The position numbers and the translations under genes are program-made. Source: Actinomycetes bacterium (GTDB taxonomy: Bacteria; Actinomycetota; Actinomycetes; Nanopelagicales; Nanopelagicaceae). Taken from it: a stretch of DNA of 34,778 bases. The stretch spans positions 1 through 34,778 of the forward strand of contig JANXME010000347.1 in NCBI GenBank assembly GCA_025354785.1, in the 5' to 3' direction. Every line of letters begins with the position of its first letter. Position 1 is the stretch's first letter. Under the pieces are notes generated by a model, which ran no database searches, had not been told where the DNA came from, and saw only the letters and a list, made by a program, of their open reading frames with translations. This document shows, in pieces, positions 1,229 to 33,331 of this stretch.

Positions 1229-1352
1229 CACCAATCGTCATCGTCGCGGTTGGGTAGCCTCCAAACCAAAGGACGTACGGGACCGTGAGGAGTGTTTAGA
1301 TGTCTTAGGTGGAGGCTACCCCGCGTCCCGTACGTCGGCAAACCCGATTGGG
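1229..1352 (+). ncRNA. Structured RNA with long pseudoknot topology
   Basis: Two perfect inverted repeats are interleaved. GGGTAGCCTCC (1252-1262) pairs with 1311-1321 (11 base pairs), and GACGTACGGGAC (1272-1283) pairs with 1325-1336 (12 base pairs). The order A-B-A'-B' is that of an H-type pseudoknot. An outer stem, CCAATCG (1231-1237) with CGATTGG (1345-1351), encloses both. No coding frame fits. Stems this long and this close together are very unlikely by chance, so a functional RNA or a protein-binding DNA structure is likely. I do not recognise the RNA class. Confidence 0.6.
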
Positions 1353-3673: not shown

Positions 3674-3710
3674 GGGTGAGCCCAAACATGTTTGGGCTCA
3701 CCCTTATTTT
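3674..3710 (+). terminator. Perfect 30-base palindrome plus T-rich tail
   Basis: GGGTGAGCCCAAACA (3674-3688) is followed directly by its exact reverse complement (3689-3703), then TTATTTTC. A 13-base-pair or longer stem with a U-rich tail is a good rho-independent terminator. It closes the 3240 gene, and the next gene has its own CAAGGAG site. Confidence 0.75.
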
Positions 3711-3733: not shown

Positions 3734-4186
3734 ATGCCCACCTGGAATGACTGCCAAGCTGCTTATGCCAAACACCCGCATGAAGTTTGCTGCATTGGAG
3801 CGGCTCTTTCAGCACGCGACGTATGGAGTGATGGAGAGGATTGGAGCTTAGCAGCGTTGTGGGCGATTGATTGTGCTGAAAGGGTTGCAAAAGGAGATGC
3901 TGCCGACGCTGCCAACGCTGCTGCCGACGCTGCCAACGCTGCTGCCAACGCTGCTGCCTACGCTGCTGCCTACGCTGCTGCCTACGCTGCTGCCTACGCT
4001 GCTGCCATCGAGCGCCTACCACTCACTGTCGGTATTTGGGGTAAATGGGAGGAGGCGCACGGCATCGCGAAGGCAGGCGACTACCTCATGCGCATAGACC
4101 CCGTTGACGGAGCAATCACCTTCGTTGAACGAGAAGATTTGGAGCCTCACGAGTTGATTGCCCTCGACGAGATTCTGGAGCGGTAA
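3734..4186 (+). CDS. Ala-rich tandem-repeat protein
   Basis: 150 residues; ATG 3734 follows ATCAAGGAGACAC. Residues 1-55 (MPTWNDCQAAYAKHPHEVCC...) contain Trp, Cys and an acidic turn (WSDGEDWSLAALWAIDCAER). Residues about 56-92 are repeats of Ala-Ala-Ala-X with X = Asp, Asn or Tyr, including four AAAY units. The C-terminus (VGIWGKWEEAHGIAKAGDYL) is an ordinary folded domain. The layout resembles bacterial Imm5-like putative immunity proteins with AAAY helices, but that is resemblance only. The repeat is coded by a 12-base tandem repeat, so its length may vary. Confidence 0.7.
   Translation: MPTWNDCQAAYAKHPHEVCCIGAALSARDVWSDGEDWSLAALWAIDCAERVAKGDAADAANAAADAANAAANAAAYAAAYAAAYAAAYAAAIERLPLTVGIWGKWEEAHGIAKAGDYLMRIDPVDGAITFVEREDLEPHELIALDEILER
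3899..4009 (+). repeat. 12-base tandem repeat in coding sequence
   Basis: Four perfect copies of GCTGCTGCCTAC at 3950-3997, flanked upstream by degenerate GCTGCCGAC/GCCAAC units. The 12-base period keeps frame, so slippage would add or remove AAAY units without breaking the gene. Confidence 0.9.
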
Positions 4187-5003: not shown

Positions 5004-5017
5004 TATCGCGGCAGGTT

Positions 5018-5068
5018 GGGGTGGTCAACCACCCCTCCTTGCTCAACTTCCTGAAATTGGTCAGGGAG
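5018..5068 (+). repeat. Two-hairpin element, copy a
   Basis: Hairpin 1, GGGGTGGT/ACCACCCC (5018-5035), is followed by TCCTTGCTCAA. Hairpin 2, CTTCCTGA/TCAGGGAG (5048-5068), is followed by GTCAAGGAG, the ribosome site of the gene at 5087. The layout matches the copies at 5285, 6165 and 7716. Confidence 0.7.
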
Positions 5069-5086
5069 TCGTCAAGGAGCATTAAC

Positions 5087-5272: not shown

Positions 5273-5284
5273 CAGTCACAAGCT

Positions 5285-5334
5285 GGGCAGGGCTAATCTG
5301 CCCTTCTTGCTCGTTCCACCGAATCTCTCGGTGG
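5285..5334 (+). repeat. Two-hairpin element, copy b
   Basis: Hairpin 1, GGGCAG/CTGCCC (5285-5303), then TTCTTGCTCG. Hairpin 2, CCACCGA/TCGGTGG (5316-5334), with loop ATCTC, then TTTGTCAAGGAG and ATG 5351. Confidence 0.7.
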
Positions 5335-5350
5335 TTTGTCAAGGAGTTAC

Positions 5351-6042: not shown

Positions 6043-6164
6043 GGCCAGAGCTCCGTTAATGGATGTCAACGCTAGCCCTCTTCTGGGCGAAACGGACCGG
6101 AAATGACCGGCAGGCCAGCATAGTCATCGTAGGCTAAGGAGCTAATCGTGAAATCTATCTGATT
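6043..6164 (+). other. Gene-free spacer with a 4-codon frame
   Basis: Contains small stems (GCCC/GGGC near 6076-6088, CCGG/CCGG near 6097-6110). An AAGGAG site is followed by a minimal frame GTG-AAA-TCT-ATC-TGA at 6148-6162, which ends just before the next hairpin. No protein gene is seen. The strong ribosome site on a 4-codon frame recalls the 7-codon frame at 1203. Confidence 0.35.
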
Positions 6165-6214
6165 GGGGCAGGCAAGCCTGCCCCTCTTGGTCGACCCCAG
6201 CAATCTCGCTGGGG
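6165..6214 (+). repeat. Two-hairpin element, copy c
   Basis: Hairpin 1, GGGGCAGGC/GCCTGCCCC (6165-6184), then TCTTGGTCGA. Hairpin 2, CCCCAGC/GCTGGGG (6195-6214), with loop AATCTC, then TAGTCAAGGGG. It is the closest relative of copy d at 7716. Confidence 0.75.
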
Positions 6215-6232
6215 TAGTCAAGGGGTGAACAT

Positions 6233-7707: not shown

Positions 7708-7715
7708 CAAGGAAT

Positions 7716-7765
7716 GGGCAAGGAAACTTGCCCCTTCTGCTCAGCCCCAGCAATCTTGCTGGGGC
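7716..7765 (+). repeat. Two-hairpin element, copy d
   Basis: Hairpin 1, GGGCAAG/CTTGCCC (7716-7733), then CCTTCTGCTCA. Hairpin 2, GCCCCAGC/GCTGGGGC (7744-7765), with loop AATCTT, then AGTCAGGAG and ATG 7783. Hairpin 2 is almost identical to that in copy c. Confidence 0.75.
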
Positions 7766-7782
7766 AGTCAGGAGTTTCACGA

Positions 7783-12254: not shown

Positions 12255-12626
12255 ATGGGAGCGCTGGATTGTGATTTTCGGTGTGTACCTGACCATCATG
12301 GATTGGGATGGTCACACTGCAGGAAATGCATGAAGACGTTGATGGGACATGGCGCCACTGTGATTGAGATTACGCACGTCGCCATGATTTGGGAGGGTAA
12401 GCTCTACTCTCTACCTAAACCCAATCGCCACCACAATCTAATCCAGATGGCTTTTGCCGAGACGGGGCATCCTGTCTATCAAAGTTGGCAGGGATTCTTA
12501 GATAGCAACGGCAAGTTTGTGGGTCGGAAGGAGGCTTATAAAACCGCTTTAAAGGCGTGTCAGCTGGACATAATGCGCCCCAAGACTTGCCCACTACACT
12601 TATTGTTTTCAGAGGATATCTGGTAA
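12255..12626 (+). CDS. Phage protein with YSLP-RHH and QGF motifs
   Basis: The well-supported part (from Met at 12330: GHGATVIEITHVAMIWEGKL, YSLPKPNRHHNLIQ..., QSWQGFLDSNGKFVGRKEAY, then A-x-x-x-A-C-Q) matches a widespread small phage protein of unknown function. The start is uncertain. From 12255 an extra Cys/His segment is added (CVPDHHGLGWSHCRKC). Alternatively a 28-codon hydrophobic frame at 12247-12333 ends with an ATGA overlap onto 12330. Confidence 0.65.
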   Translation: MGALDCDFRCVPDHHGLGWSHCRKCMKTLMGHGATVIEITHVAMIWEGKLYSLPKPNRHHNLIQMAFAETGHPVYQSWQGFLDSNGKFVGRKEAYKTALKACQLDIMRPKTCPLHLLFSEDIW

Positions 12627-12925
12627 TGACTCGAAAAGAATTTGAGAGTTTAGTTAAAAAACTTAACCCATGCCAAACGGGAATGGCACGTCTGCGTCAT
12701 GCCAAGGGCACGGTGCTCCAGGTGCTCAAGGAGTATGCTGCCTGTGAAGCTCATCCCAGGTGGCTGTTAACAGATCGACAACGGTTGCTAGATCAAGATT
12801 TTGCATGGCTTGAATTAAATGTTCGCAGTCTATCTCTACCGATGTATAGTGATGGTGTCAGTCGTCCTGCGCATAGGGCCGCCAAGCGTCTTATAGTCGA
12901 GCTCAAGCGTGTCAAAATTTTTTAA
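12626..12925 (+). CDS. MTRKEF-family protein, paralog 1
   Basis: 99 residues; ATG 12626 overlaps the previous stop region. MTRKEFESLVKKLNPCQTGM then RLRHAKGTVLQVLKEYAACE and FAWLELNV define a family present five times here (also 13129, 13388, 14820, 15341). Shared features are an N-terminal helix, Cys or Ser followed by x-x-G, GTVLQVLK, and an aromatic D-x-x-WL. This recalls the short C-x-E-A-x-x-W...DWLLW proteins of phages and myxobacteria. Function unknown. Confidence 0.65.
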   Translation: MTRKEFESLVKKLNPCQTGMARLRHAKGTVLQVLKEYAACEAHPRWLLTDRQRLLDQDFAWLELNVRSLSLPMYSDGVSRPAHRAAKRLIVELKRVKIF

Positions 12926-13118
12926 GCTCTATGTGCGTCGCCAACTGTACATGGAAGTAGTCATAGAAGCCAATTCCAAAAATGAGGCGCAACGTCTACT
13001 TGGTCGAGATATCATAAACCGTACCGGTCGATATGATCTCCGTTGGATTGGTAACCATGAAGATTTTGTAACCCTGATTTGTGAGATAGATAAAGATGGG
13101 AAAGCAATTCCTGATTAA
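12909..13118 (+). CDS. DpnD/PcfM-like small protein, GTG start
   Basis: GTG 12909 inside the end of the previous gene. MSKFFKLYVRRQLYMEVVIE, then ANSKNEAQRLL, has the strand-strand-helix pattern with E-A-N-S-K-N-E-A, as in the 7528 protein. The end (DFVTLICEIDKDGKAIPD) is a further strand pair. Function unknown. Confidence 0.55.
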   Translation: MSKFFKLYVRRQLYMEVVIEANSKNEAQRLLGRDIINRTGRYDLRWIGNHEDFVTLICEIDKDGKAIPD

Positions 13119-13128
13119 GGAGTCCACA

Positions 13129-13386
13129 ATGACACGTAAAGAGTTTCATAAGTTGGTCAAGTCCCTGCATCCTTGCGCAGATGGCATGCGCCGCCTTCGT
13201 GCCAAAAAGGGGACAGTGTTGCAGGTGCTCAAACAATATGCCAAACACGAGCGTGTTTGGAATCCCCACAAACGCGGATATAAAATGAATTGTGATTTCT
13301 GCTGGTTACGCAATATGGTCTGTTGGTGGCGTACCACAATCTGTAAGATGATTTATAAGCAAATGAAACGCGCCAAGGTTATCTAA
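13129..13386 (+). CDS. MTRKEF-family protein, paralog 2
   Basis: 85 residues; ATG 13129 follows AAGGAGTCCACA. MTRKEFHKLVKSLHPCADGM then RLRAKKGTVLQVLKQYAKHE is nearly the same as paralog 1 over 40 residues. The second half is Trp/Cys-rich and basic (NCDFCWLRNMVCWWRTTICK). Tandem duplication with 13388 is likely. Confidence 0.65.
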   Translation: MTRKEFHKLVKSLHPCADGMRRLRAKKGTVLQVLKQYAKHERVWNPHKRGYKMNCDFCWLRNMVCWWRTTICKMIYKQMKRAKVI

Positions 13387-13387
13387 C

Positions 13388-13699
13388 ATGACTAAAAAAG
13401 AATTTTGCTCATTGATTTCAAAGCTTAAACCGTGTGATGAAGGGTTGGTCCGCCTGCGCAACTCGCCAGGAACTCTGAGACAGGTACTGAAGCGGTATGC
13501 ATCGTACAAGATCAACTACAGTTCCCATAGCCCTCAGCAGTGTGGTAGACACCGCCGCGCAATCGATTTTGATTGGTTGCTCCATATCGTAGAAATGAGC
13601 ATTTATCATCTGGGTTATGATATCAGGGTACTCAAAAAGATTATGGCAGAGCTAGATCGCACCCTGCCGAATGTGCAGCGGCAACCACGTCCCTATTAG
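13388..13699 (+). CDS. MTRKEF-family protein, paralog 3
   Basis: 103 residues starting one base after the previous stop. MTKKEFCSLISKLKPCDEGL then RLRNSPGTLRQVLKRYASYK shows the family pattern, and FDWLLHIVEMSIYHLG the aromatic second half. The C-terminus is basic and proline-rich. It is followed within five bases by sigma-54-like box 5. Confidence 0.65.
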   Translation: MTKKEFCSLISKLKPCDEGLVRLRNSPGTLRQVLKRYASYKINYSSHSPQQCGRHRRAIDFDWLLHIVEMSIYHLGYDIRVLKKIMAELDRTLPNVQRQPRPY

Positions 13700-13703
13700 A
13701 CAC

Positions 13704-13719
13704 TGGCACGCCCATTGCA
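13704..13719 (+). promoter_or_regulatory. Sigma-54-like -24/-12 promoter, copy 5
   Basis: TGGCACGCCCATTGCA, an exact match to the RpoN consensus TGGCACG-N4-TTGCA, in the gap between 13699 and ATG 13748. Confidence 0.8.
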
Positions 13720-13747
13720 TTTCTTCTTGTCTCCAGGAGAAGAGTCG

Positions 13748-14107
13748 ATGGTACACTTGCTCGCCGCGATGCTTGTCGTTAGTCCACCGAGGCCCCGGAC
13801 GGTGCCAGTCGTTCTCAAGCATTGTTTGACTCAATGTAAAGACGGTTACGATGACAGTGTACGCAGGTGTTGGTATGACGAAGCAAAATCTTGCAAAATC
13901 GAGTGTGTTGTCACACGTTGGCGACAATGTCTCCCAACAGTGGTGGTGTTGGGTAATTGGAACCCAACTCCTGCAGATTATCTGCCAGAGTCTTACGATT
14001 TTGTCCAATATCCGCCAGATACGTTTGTCTCGCATCTCGCAGATTCACCTGAACCAGAAACTCCGACATATCACTTTAGCGGCCATTTCGGCGTCGTGAA
14101 GGAATAA
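13748..14107 (+). CDS. 119-residue Cys-rich protein, possibly exported
   Basis: ATG 13748 behind CAGGAGAAGAG, 29 bases after the promoter box. The N-terminus (MVHLLAAMLVVSPPRPRTVP) is a short hydrophobic segment that could act as a signal or anchor. Six Cys follow within 50 residues (HCLTQCKDGYDDSVRRCWYD, SCKIECVV), an even number that would suit disulphides after export. The end is proline-rich and acidic. No family recognised. Confidence 0.55.
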   Translation: MVHLLAAMLVVSPPRPRTVPVVLKHCLTQCKDGYDDSVRRCWYDEAKSCKIECVVTRWRQCLPTVVVLGNWNPTPADYLPESYDFVQYPPDTFVSHLADSPEPETPTYHFSGHFGVVKE

Positions 14108-14109
14108 CT

Positions 14110-14349
14110 ATGGCAAATTTGCTCAAGCAGGATCTGGTTGGCAAAATGGTAGTACTTAATAAAGAGGCGTTTGACGAGCCTTTTTCGGAGGCTGATCGTA
14201 CCTGCAAGGTGATTGGTGGGTTCGGGTCAAACGACATGGACATTGACGACCCGCGCTGTCTTTCACGTCGGGGCGGTGCGTTGTATGTTGAGTGGCCCGA
14301 TGGTTCGTCGGGCGCGTTCCGTGGTCTGGACGTGGAGAAACTAGCATGA
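14110..14349 (+). CDS. 79-residue beta-rich protein
   Basis: ATG 14110 follows AAGGAATAACT. The product (MANLLKQDLVGKMVVLNKEA...) is beta-rich with VIGGFGSNDMDIDDPRC, then GGALYVEWPDGSSGAFRGLD. It looks like a small barrel-type domain. No family recognised. ATGA overlap with the next gene. Confidence 0.6.
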   Translation: MANLLKQDLVGKMVVLNKEAFDEPFSEADRTCKVIGGFGSNDMDIDDPRCLSRRGGALYVEWPDGSSGAFRGLDVEKLA

Positions 14350-14546
14350 GCGTCTTGGCGATCATGGCAATGACGAGCATCATGGATACGCCCGGTCCGC
14401 AAGAGCGTGTTGATGTGCCCGTTCGGCGGGTGCGGTCGTCGCACACACACCCGTTCGAGACGACGGCCCAAGCGCGCGACAGAAAGAAACTAGAGCGGCA
14501 ACGTAAAAAGAAGGCCCGCGCCGACCAGCGCCGGATAGAAAGATGA
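14346..14546 (+). CDS. 66-residue basic protein
   Basis: ATGA overlap sets the start. The product (MSVLAIMAMTSIMDTPGPQE...) has a short hydrophobic start, then a strongly basic tail (RDRKKLERQRKKKARADQRR). The tail probably binds nucleic acid or is disordered. Function unknown. Confidence 0.55.
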   Translation: MSVLAIMAMTSIMDTPGPQERVDVPVRRVRSSHTHPFETTAQARDRKKLERQRKKKARADQRRIER

Positions 14547-14570
14547 TCTCAGAGCCACGAAACGAATAGT

Positions 14571-14586
14571 TGGCACGGCCATTGCA
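14571..14586 (+). promoter_or_regulatory. Sigma-54-like -24/-12 promoter, copy 6
   Basis: TGGCACGGCCATTGCA, exact match to the RpoN consensus, in the gap between 14546 and ATG 14632. Confidence 0.8.
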
Positions 14587-14631
14587 CACCGGGACGGGGC
14601 CACGCAGTTCAGCGCCAACCAAGGATCAATA

Positions 14632-14823
14632 ATGAATACCCGTCTCATCCCAACCGATTTCGGTTTCGAGATTCACCTCCGAATAGTTGATAACGACTCC
14701 AGGTCGCCGTTCAAGCAGTTCGGCACGGGTGTGGGTGTAACCATGGAGCAACATCTGGGCCGCGAACTTACTCCGGCAGAGCTAAAGTCGTTGGCTACCA
14801 ACAAGTATGTGGAGATTGCATGA
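14632..14823 (+). CDS. 63-residue protein of unknown function
   Basis: ATG 14632 behind CCAAGGATCAATA, 46 bases after the promoter box. The product (MNTRLIPTDFGFEIHLRIVD...) has strands early and a helix later (GRELTPAELKSLATNKYVEI). No family recognised. ATGA overlap with the MTRKEF-family gene at 14820 puts that gene in the same unit. Confidence 0.6.
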   Translation: MNTRLIPTDFGFEIHLRIVDNDSRSPFKQFGTGVGVTMEQHLGRELTPAELKSLATNKYVEIA

Positions 14824-15299
14824 CCCGCAAAGATTTTTTGAAAATCTTGAGGAAGTTAGACGCTTGTGGTGAAGGTTACGACACTGCTGCAGCCTCCAAA
14901 GGCGCAGTCTTCACAGTGGCGAAGGCGTGGAGGGACTCATACGGCTGGACGTGTGTACGTCAATATTATGACTGGTTAAAGCAAGAGCTCGACTCGCCGG
15001 GCAACCTGACCCGCAAAGAATACGCCCAGATGGTCGACTTGATGCATCGCCTTGAGCCAAATTTTATGACCCGGGCTGAAAGAGCAAAAAAGATAGACCT
15101 CGAAGATACATTGAATGAAATTACCTGTAGTCTAAGTACTGCAAGAAGTATGTTAAACGACGCCCAAGATCTAGAAGACTCAATCAGATCGGACCTAGAA
15201 AACGCCCATGCAGATACGAAGATGTATACGAAAGAAGTGAGAGAAAAAACCATTCGGGGACAAAAGTTGGAGAATGAGCTTAAGCGATTCGATAAGTAG
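14820..15299 (+). CDS. MTRKEF-family protein with coiled-coil tail, paralog 4
   Basis: 159 residues. MTRKDFLKILRKLDACGEGY then KGAVFTVAKAWRDSYGW and YDWLKQEL shows the family pattern over residues 1-60. Residues about 85-159 add a long charged helix with heptad features (EDTLNEITCSLSTARSMLND, AQDLEDSIRSDLENAHADTK), probably a coiled coil. It is the only one of the five paralogs with this extension. Function unknown. Confidence 0.65.
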   Translation: MTRKDFLKILRKLDACGEGYDTAAASKGAVFTVAKAWRDSYGWTCVRQYYDWLKQELDSPGNLTRKEYAQMVDLMHRLEPNFMTRAERAKKIDLEDTLNEITCSLSTARSMLNDAQDLEDSIRSDLENAHADTKMYTKEVREKTIRGQKLENELKRFDK

Positions 15300-15340
15300 C
15301 AAATTTGCAAGGTTGTTAAACCAAAGGAGAAGTAAATAAT

Positions 15341-15601
15341 ATGCGTAGAGTTGATTTTGTTGAAGTGCTGAAGAAGTTAGGTGCCAGTCCCGAGGGTATT
15401 GAGGCTGTCAGCCGAGTTCCCGGTAAGGTGACTCAGGTTGCACGAAAGTTTGCACATCCGCGTGGTCGAGGTGCGCCGGTCAAGCGTCAGTATTTTGATT
15501 GGCTGGTCGAGCAAGTCGCGACCATCAACACCGCTCTGACTCCGTTCGAGCAGAGCGAGGTTACGCAGATCGTCACTAACGCCGACACCGTTCGGCAGTA
15601 A
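15341..15601 (+). CDS. MTRKEF-family protein, paralog 5
   Basis: 86 residues; ATG 15341 behind AAAGGAGAAG. MRRVDFVEVLKKLGASPEGI then VPGKVTQVARKFAHPRGRGA and YFDWLVEQVATI keeps the family layout, but the usual Cys is replaced by Ser. Codons are more GC-rich than in paralogs 1-4. It is followed by a long gene-free stretch with hairpins. Confidence 0.65.
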   Translation: MRRVDFVEVLKKLGASPEGIEAVSRVPGKVTQVARKFAHPRGRGAPVKRQYFDWLVEQVATINTALTPFEQSEVTQIVTNADTVRQ

Positions 15602-15835
15602 ACATTCACAAGGACTAGGGGTTTAGGTGGAGCCGGCCTAAACTTGCGGAGATAACTTCTTCCAACAGAGCAATCCTTGACTATATAAACCCGGTTTGGC
15701 GAATTGGAACCGGTGCTCTAAATATTCGCTCAGTACGCAAGGGCTAAATCTTTATCATAAATCTAGCTGGTCCCAACCAGAGAGCACTGGTTTAGATTTA
15801 GCCTTTGCGCATTGATTTACACAATGGAGAATACA
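15602..15835 (+). promoter_or_regulatory. Gene-free regulatory region with three hairpins
   Basis: GTTTAGG/CCTAAAC (15621-15643); CCGGTT/AACCGG (15691-15713); and a 16-base-pair stem (15736-15751 with 15794-15809, one G-T pair) enclosing CTGGT/ACCAG (15767-15780). TATATAAA at 15682 could be a -10 element with TTCCAA as -35, and the CCGGTT repeat just downstream could be an operator. No gene is seen. Confidence 0.5.
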
Positions 15836-16165
15836 ATGAATTTTGGAGAACCAAAAAGTCTAGATGCAGCCTTTGCAGATTTGACTGTCCCACAGCGATT
15901 CGTATATCTGTTGTTGAGTATCCCGCTTACTCCGATACATGGGCTGGTGTTCTCATGTCTATGGAATTGGTTCCTTGTGCCGCTCGGTCTGATTCATGTC
16001 AGCTGGATTCATATGCTTGGTGTCGGACTCGTCACGTACGGTCTTACCAGCACATACGGCGCTGCGACCAAATCGGTCGATAGTGCATTCGAATATGTCG
16101 TTGGGCGATACATGTTTTTGGGAGTCATCCTTCTTGAGGGCTGGATTGTCCATGCACTCATGTAA
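15836..16165 (+). CDS. Multi-span membrane protein
   Basis: ATG 15836 has GGAGA upstream; ATG 15824 is an alternative. 109 residues (MNFGEPKSLDAAFADLTVPQ...) with hydrophobic segments near 22-42 (FVYLLLSIPLTPIHGLVFSC), 43-68 (NWFLVPLGLIHVSWIHMLGV) and the C-terminus (YMFLGVILLEGWIVHALM). It is probably an inner-membrane protein with three spans. No family recognised; neighbours are also membrane or lipoproteins. Confidence 0.6.
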   Translation: MNFGEPKSLDAAFADLTVPQRFVYLLLSIPLTPIHGLVFSCLWNWFLVPLGLIHVSWIHMLGVGLVTYGLTSTYGAATKSVDSAFEYVVGRYMFLGVILLEGWIVHALM

Positions 16166-24416: not shown

Positions 24417-24673
24417 GGGTTGTGGGTGTGATAGGTTGTATAGAGGAAGTGTGGCCGCCGTGCACTGTCAGCGGCATGTGCATTGAGCTCCACCCAAAAA
24501 TAATTTGGGCTAAAACGTAAGCGAACACGGAATGCTCTATTGAGATAGCATGGTAGATAGGGGTGGTGCCCTGAAGTGCTGTGTAATGTAGATGTGAGAA
24601 CCGTAAGTAAGCCACACCTAGAGAGAACTAACCACCTTAATAGGCCGGGGTTCAAGTCCCCGGTAGCCCACCA
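24417..24673 (+). ncRNA. tmRNA-like RNA with tRNA-like 3' end
   Basis: The 3' end is a textbook T arm (CGGGG-TTCAAGT-CCCCG, 24646-24662), acceptor strand GTAGCCC, A and an encoded CCA (24671-24673). No normal D or anticodon arm lies just upstream. GGGTTGT at 24417 can pair with the acceptor strand (three G-U pairs), and GTGTGGC (24449-24455) pairs with GCCACAC (24611-24617) just before the T arm, as helix P2 does in tmRNA. CCCAAA/TTTGGG (24493-24509) and CCGC/GCGG stems lie between. No tag ending in ALAA is seen, so tmRNA is a candidate only; a tRNA with an insertion is the main alternative. Confidence 0.45.
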
Positions 24674-24678
24674 ATTCT

Positions 24679-31863: not shown

Positions 31864-32043
31864 ATGTATAATCGAGACGAATTAGAGCGTGAAATAATTA
31901 GGTCAGCGGTGAAGATGTTCGCTGACTACCACGTTCTCTACAAGAATATGTTGCGAGGCAATAAAGATAGCAATGAGGCTAAGCTTCTCAAGGCAGTCGA
32001 GCTTTATGAAGCACATAAGGATATCATACATGACAGTAAATAA
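31864..32043 (+). CDS. 59-residue helical protein
   Basis: ATG 31864, four bases after the previous stop. The product (MYNRDELEREIIRSAVKMFA...) is helical and charged. It is chosen over a different frame across the same bases because it starts in place and overlaps the 32030 gene by 14 bases, as usual here. Function unknown. Confidence 0.55.
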   Translation: MYNRDELEREIIRSAVKMFADYHVLYKNMLRGNKDSNEAKLLKAVELYEAHKDIIHDSK

Positions 32044-33331
32044 GAAGGTTCAGATTATTGGCGGTGGTACGATCGAGCATGTGGCGGCGCACCTGGCTCT
32101 GTCTGCTCCCGCATATGGTCAGACCGCTCGCAGATTGTCGGAGCTCGCTAAGGAACTATGTTACTCGCTCGACACCATCCTGACTTTGACCAAGATGGCA
32201 GGTGGGGATGTAATCGAGACTAATAGTGATGTGTCTCGTTGGGTTGCGAATATCATCAATGATCCGCTCACCAAGATTGTGTTCTTCAACGTGGCTCTGG
32301 TCGATTTCGGTGGCGCAGTATGGACGTTGCGTGACACGGATGTTGCGACCACAGAGTTTTGTGATCCGCTGCCACACGGTAAGTATGCTACCCGCCTGCA
32401 GAGTAATCTGAAGGATATCGATGGATATGCTATTGAGCTTATTCCGACTGACAAGATTGTAGATCGCATCCGGGCAATCCGTAAGGATATCACGTTGGTC
32501 GCGTTCAAGACTACATGCGGAGCAACGGAGGATGAACAGTACATTGCCGGCCTCAACCTGTTGAAGCGTGCCTCGTGCAATTTGGTATTGGCAAATGACG
32601 TCAAGACCCACGTGAATATGGTCATCACTCCCGAAGAAGCTAGATATCACGTCACCACTGACCGTGATGAGGCACTCCGTGGGTTGGTTGAGATGGCCAG
32701 CTTGCGCTCTCATCTTACATTCACCCGGTCCACTGTACTACAGGGAAACCCGATACCGTGGCAGTCAGAGTTGGTTCCGGACACCTTGCGTACGGTCGTC
32801 AATTATTGCATCAGCGAAGGTGCCTATAAACCTTTCAGAGGTGCGACGGTTGGACATTTTGCTTGTCGCCTGGAGGGTACACACGACGAGTTTTTGACGT
32901 CACGACGCAAGACCAATTTCAATGACCTGGACAAGCTGGGGCTTGTTCGTATCAAGACTGACGGGCCAGATTCGGTTATTGCTTATGGATCCAAGCCGAG
33001 TGTTGGTGGCATGTCTCAGCGGATTATCTTCAAAGAGCATGAAGGTTACGACTGTATCGCCCATTTTCACTGTCCCATCAGGCCCGGCTCCAAGGTCCCA
33101 ATCGTTTCCCAGCGTGAGTTTGAGTGTGGAAGTCACGAATGCGGCAACAACACATCCTCGGGTTTGCGAGAGTTTAGAGCAGGTGATCATAAGATCTTGG
33201 CTGTTTACCTTGACCAGCACGGACCGAATATCGTGTTTAAACGAGATGTTGACCCATACGCCGTCATCAAGTTCATAGAACAGAATTTTGATCTCAAGGG
33301 GAAGACCGGTGGGTTCGTCGAAATTAAATAG
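32030..33331 (+). CDS. CoaB-like domain fused to class II aldolase-like domain
   Basis: 433 residues; ATG 32030 is in frame and overlaps the previous gene, and a longer frame from 31973 lacks support. Residues 5-225 resemble the phosphopantothenate-cysteine ligase (CoaB/DFP) fold: QIIGGGTIEHV, KIVFFNVALVDFGG, LIPTDKIVDRIR, LVAFKTTCGATEDEQ, LVLANDVKTHVNMVI. Residues 235-433 resemble class II aldolase/adducin: GHFACRLEGTHDEFLTSRRK, SKPS, IAHFHCP (His345, His347) and DQHGPNIVF (His397), the zinc ligands of that fold. This pairing could make and then cleave or rearrange a nucleotide- or sugar-linked substrate. The true reaction is unknown. Confidence 0.65.
   Translation: MTVNKKVQIIGGGTIEHVAAHLALSAPAYGQTARRLSELAKELCYSLDTILTLTKMAGGDVIETNSDVSRWVANIINDPLTKIVFFNVALVDFGGAVWTLRDTDVATTEFCDPLPHGKYATRLQSNLKDIDGYAIELIPTDKIVDRIRAIRKDITLVAFKTTCGATEDEQYIAGLNLLKRASCNLVLANDVKTHVNMVITPEEARYHVTTDRDEALRGLVEMASLRSHLTFTRSTVLQGNPIPWQSELVPDTLRTVVNYCISEGAYKPFRGATVGHFACRLEGTHDEFLTSRRKTNFNDLDKLGLVRIKTDGPDSVIAYGSKPSVGGMSQRIIFKEHEGYDCIAHFHCPIRPGSKVPIVSQREFECGSHECGNNTSSGLREFRAGDHKILAVYLDQHGPNIVFKRDVDPYAVIKFIEQNFDLKGKTGGFVEIK

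Follow-up and report, generated by a model that had tools for sequence, protein, structure and literature searches.

Background

In most known H-type pseudoknots, at least one of the stems is 3-7 pairs long. In phage messages, the translational operator of gene 32 in T4 and RB69 is an RNA pseudoknot that lies 5' of the ribosome site (PMC535899), while GOLLD and ROOL are large, ornate structured RNAs that contain pseudoknots and are known from phages and prophages, where they often lie close to tRNAs (PMC12286853). Here we describe two elements of one phage contig in which two long inverted repeats are interleaved in the A-B-A'-B' order of an H-type pseudoknot, both of them located in gaps that hold no recognisable gene. 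The reading that we favour, and hold tentatively, is that both are cis-acting, long-stem H-type pseudoknots of phage messages.

The contig

The window, that is, the whole stretch of 34,778 nucleotides analysed, corresponds to the complete contig C351 and belongs to a binned genome of 1.95 Mb. It has the look of phage DNA: its genes are short, numerous and mostly on one strand, the identified ones lying on the + strand, and they are accompanied by tRNA genes and by genes for a tRNA nucleotidyltransferase and for AlkB-like and polynucleotide-kinase-like proteins. The protein encoded at 31973-33331 is 56% identical to a protein of the 595-kb uncultured phage LR756511 and weakly matches both a CoaBC-like flavoprotein domain and a class II aldolase domain. 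When this protein and its LR756511 homologue were used as the alignment query, relatives were found in 26 IMG/VR viral contigs and, upon extended alignment, in 19 MAG contigs from very different phyla (labelled L009-L034 and L074-L092). The protein can be read either as the marker of a broad phage group or as partly a host gene, and the contigs that share it have little else in common with the window. Judging from the LR756511 match and from the large contigs that carry relatives of the protein, the phage itself is probably large. A tRNA-like RNA of about 169 nt is present at 24506-24674, with a 7-bp acceptor stem (TGGGCTA/TAGCCCA), a T arm, an encoded CCA and an abnormally long middle; it is called neither by ARAGORN nor by Rfam, and a tmRNA-like RNA and a tRNA carrying a large insert are both conceivable.

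Element 1

Element 1 (1252-1336) is made up of two perfect inverted repeats, each with 12 of 12 Watson-Crick pairs, that are interleaved with connectors of 8, 26 and 3 nt over a total span of 85 nt:

1252-1263, + strand: 5' arm of stem A, GGGTAGCCTCCA, exact complement of 1310-1321
1272-1283, + strand: 5' arm of stem B, GACGTACGGGAC, exact complement of 1325-1336
1284-1309, + strand: 26-nt connector between B and A', with a weak hairpin (fold -2.9 kcal/mol)
1310-1321, + strand: 3' arm of stem A (A'), TGGAGGCTACCC, pairing with 1252-1263
1325-1336, + strand: 3' arm of stem B (B'), GTCCCGTACGTC, 3 nt past A'

The first-pass annotation had described these repeats as perfect and ordered A-B-A'-B', which is exact, and as 11 and 12 bases long, of which the 12 is right and the 11 is also a 12. 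Its statement that they lie beyond chance holds as well. Indeed, chance would produce 0.075 perfect 12-bp inverted repeats within 90 nt over the whole window, and the stacking energy of the interleaved pair, -55.6 kcal/mol, was reached in none of 3000 dinucleotide shuffles of 1226-1360 (best -50.7, mean -27.7, sd 4.0). The enclosing third stem that had been proposed at 1231/1345 corresponds to a real 7-bp complement (1231-1237/1345-1351) that is not told from chance, and it was dropped for its low rank among the helices there and because a stronger local hairpin (1231-1238/1246-1253) competes with it.

The surroundings of element 1, an 800-nt stretch (1040-1839), hold no recognisable gene above a few codons, and no gene start is close by. 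The 7-codon frame noted previously is present 5' of the element (ATG 1203 to TAA 1226, preceded by AAGGAGG) and has no counterpart at element 2; a two-codon frame with a ribosome-like site (GAGGAG-7 nt-ATG TCT TAG) is also held by the 1284-1309 connector. No terminator-like site was found downstream, and a large ornate RNA spanning the whole gap is unsupported, as folding z-scores beyond about 1380 are mostly unremarkable. Directly 3' of the element, the gene-free stretch 1428-1760 is the most G-rich of the contig; the 300-nt window from 1428 has the highest excess of G over C, and the sole G-quadruplex motif lies at 1659-1716.

Element 2 and the rarity of the arrangement

Once element 1 was known, the whole contig was scanned for the best interleaved pair in 135-nt windows with a step of 30, and two places stood out, namely element 1 and 15691-15825. 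The latter contains element 2 (15707-15809), again in the order A-B-A'-B', inside the gap 15602-15835, with connectors of 16, 29 and 0 nt and a total span of 103 nt:

15707-15719, + strand: 5' arm of stem A, GAACCGGTGCTCT, 13 pairs, two of them G-U, with 15781-15793
15736-15751, + strand: 5' arm of stem B, CGCAAGGGCTAAATCT, 16 pairs, one of them G-U, with 15794-15809
15752-15780, + strand: 29-nt connector from B to A', with the hairpin CTGGT-CCCA-ACCAG at its end
15781-15793, + strand: 3' arm of stem A (A'), AGAGCACTGGTTT, pairing with 15707-15719
15794-15809, + strand: 3' arm of stem B (B'), AGATTTAGCCTTTGCG, immediately after A'
15836-16165, + strand: gene for a small membrane protein, weak match to phrog_2169 (host takeover category, E 2e-4)

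From the end of B' there are 17 nt to a GGAG ribosome site and 27 nt to ATG 15836. On the 5' side, the gap is preceded by the last of five small paralogous proteins encoded within 12626-15601 (at 12626, 13129, 13388, 14820 and 15341), which start with MTRKEF..L.KKL and for which searching recognised no relatives.

The stack energies of the two elements are -55.6 and -55.0, against -36.6 for the next best place on the contig when a short A'-B' link is required. Their letters are unrelated, and alignment leaves the two out of register. When related contigs (2.77 Mb, both strands) were shuffled locally and scanned in twelve passes, two hits at or below -50 were obtained. Thus, about 0.002 such elements are expected per window of this size and two are present, the expectation being somewhat optimistic in that the geometry limits were set after both elements had been seen; it does cover the search for element 2 for the fixed geometry used. 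This recurrence within one contig is the sole comparative evidence, and it suggests that the shape is under selection in both elements, since the independent second copy has different letters.

Searches for relatives

The regions of element 1 and element 2 matched no Rfam family at E values up to 10, including the ROOL, GOLLD and tmRNA models with which comparison had been suggested for element 1, and over the window only two tRNAs reached the gathering score. DNA searches found no relatives of element 1 in phages or plasmids, and for element 2 only a 24-nt chance match in phages. The binned genome returned nothing beyond the two elements apart from chance matches to element 2, one of which falls in a glyA-like gene, while the DNA of the element 1 region gave short chance matches only against IMG/VR records and LR756511. 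Searches with loop-sequence patterns in IMG/VR returned nothing or chance hits, 400 genomes of the host phylum gave weak matches only, and protein searches for close relatives yielded nothing for three proteins. Topology scans over 2.77 and 3.64 Mb of related contigs revealed no intergenic equivalent of either element. Their best hits were rejected, being inside long reading frames (L099, L027, L091) or repeat arrays (L156/L162), or looking like dispersed bacterial repeats (L090, L081). The array shared by the related viral contigs L156 (17982-18111) and L162 (14347-14476, both in reverse-strand coordinates) consists of alternating inverted repeats, AGTCTGTCCAAG and CTTGGGCAGACT, and lies partly outside long reading frames. 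With no homologue in the collections covered, the new class of free RNA that the first-pass annotation considered possible is unsupported.

Hairpins in the gene gaps

Strong hairpins (-16 kcal/mol or better) occur at 3.22 per kb in the gaps and 0.51 per kb in coding DNA, about six times richer, on the basis of our own gene annotation, which was guided by ribosome sites and in which further open reading frames were masked by hand. Twin-hairpin cassettes are found between genes at 5004-5086, 5273-5350, around 6163-6225 and at 7708-7782; the copies resemble one another in spacer (CCCTTCTTGCTC-like) and ribosome site (TCAAGGAG-like), which occupy fixed places, and have strong stems whose letters vary among the copies in a compensating manner that keeps the pairing. 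At 208-292, 486-557, 905-985, 2110-2180 and 2413-2502, single hairpins separate a stop codon from the ribosome site that follows (often ACCAAGGAG); their flanks are partly constant (GCGCGGGAC, CTGCCCCTTGT) and their stems are changed yet still paired. At 3674-3703, a terminator-like hairpin with 14 perfect base pairs and a loop of 2 nt (GGGTGAGCCCAAAC-AT-GTTTGGGCTCACCC), followed by TTATTTTCT, stands just 5' of gene 3734-4186, which itself contains a 12-nt repeat array (3855-4014) coding for Ala-rich AANAAAYAAAY repeats. The two proposed pseudoknots may represent the interleaved form of this habit of placing strong hairpins between genes.

Strand and folding

The three pairs of element 2 that depart from Watson-Crick are all G-U on the + strand; the opposite strand would have A-C mismatches there. 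The folding z-score of element 2 is -6.5 on the + strand versus -4.2 on the other. Element 1, being perfect, is uninformative on strand. As the identified genes also lie on the + strand, these features suggest, from three positions only as regards the pairs, an RNA that is read from the + strand together with the genes.

The topology is most naturally read as a long-stem pseudoknot, and the second copy with other letters favours selection on the structure; the two stems may pair at the same time. Nested folds in which only one of the stems pairs come to about -50 to -55 kcal/mol, and a rough estimate for the pseudoknot, given by stem stacks of about -55, the penalty of about 13 in standard parameters and small hairpins, lands somewhat above or near these values. 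Since the nested folds are about equally stable, the energies are compatible with a knot as well as with alternating hairpins. On geometric grounds, the A'-B' link of 3 or 0 nt would let the helices stack end to end on the A'-B' strand, with the first connector outside, or lie side by side. In element 2 the 16-nt connector could span a 29-bp stack, while the 8-nt connector of element 1 would hardly reach along a stack of 24 bp without a bend in the 3-nt link, and a side-by-side layout of two equal helices would fit.

Alternative explanations

The comparable stability of the one-stem folds is also what would be expected of an RNA switch, in which A:A' and B:B' are alternative hairpins and a ribosome, a protein or the speed of transcription makes the choice and so controls the message. 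This explanation, which we regard as possible but not probable, also draws on the upstream hairpin arm with which the 5' part of A can pair instead in both elements (1231-1238 and 15691-15697, respectively), and on the short translated-looking frame that precedes element 1. Competing arms in RNA switches usually overlap, whereas the four main arms here are separate and mutually compatible, and element 1 has neither a terminator-like site after it nor a close gene start.

It is unlikely that the elements are free, trans-acting small RNAs with the pseudoknot as structural core. The 800-nt stretch around element 1 would provide room for such an RNA, and its AT-richer start (1081-1150) could hold a promoter; however, no consensus sigma-70 promoter-like site was found in that stretch, element 2 is directly 5' of a ribosome site, and no Rfam family resembles either element.

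A function at the level of DNA, through paired sites for protein binding, recombination or replication, is judged quite unlikely. Element 1 is perfect as DNA, and the G-rich stretch 1428-1760, with its G excess and G-quadruplex motif, may in that case belong to a transcription-primed origin. Against this, the G-U pairing of element 2 preserves no DNA palindrome and element 2 has no G-rich stretch, the arms are 41-61 nt apart, unlike those of usual dimer operators, and GC skew does not switch at the element 1 site.

Finally, chance interleaving of inverted repeats is very improbable: coding DNA and repeat arrays of relatives (L099, L162, L091) contain a long interleaved pair now and then, but two in the gaps of one 35-kb contig far exceed the expectation given above, and a simple inverted duplication of A-B would give B'-A' instead of A'-B'.

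Proposed roles

If the elements are cis-acting pseudoknots, each would form an H-type knot with unusually long stems of 12 and 12 or 13 and 16 pairs, in which few or no nucleotides link A' to B' and 26-29 nt link B to A'. Carried in + strand messages, they would most likely act as compact roadblocks and protein targets, the roadblocks halting exoribonucleases or keeping adjacent genes apart. Element 2 may control the access of ribosomes to the next gene, either as a translation operator or as a stability block. Translational control is a fair guess in this case because the pseudoknot of the T4 gene 32 operator is also 5' of its ribosome site. Element 1 has no nearby gene start, and any role shared by the two would therefore be broader, such as message protection or the separation of neighbouring genes. 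It is a doubtful proposition that the two are the first examples of a new class, in which a long-stem pseudoknot of any sequence, with A' next to B' and both helices making a full turn or more, serves phages as a mechanical or protein-bound insulator between genes.

If the two stems do pair in one molecule, the resulting pseudoknots would be much larger than usual and kept by shape and not by letters, and searches based on sequence conservation would miss elements of such a kind. Scanning the gaps between phage genes for this topology, in the way applied to this contig, could reveal whether phages generally rely on such elements to keep their messages apart or protected.

Comparison with known systems

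GOLLD and ROOL are likewise structured RNAs encoded by phages, and the elements described here are far simpler and match no Rfam model. With the gene 32 operator of T4 and RB69, element 2 shares its position, the end of B' being 27 nt before ATG 15836, and element 1 does not; no gp32 gene is seen beside either element, and the pseudoknot component of the T4 operator has a total of about 28 nt, compared with 85 and 103 nt here. Classical H-type pseudoknots, such as those of frameshift signals, combine two interleaved stems with three connectors, as do both elements, in which, however, each of the two stems extends over a full helical turn or more.
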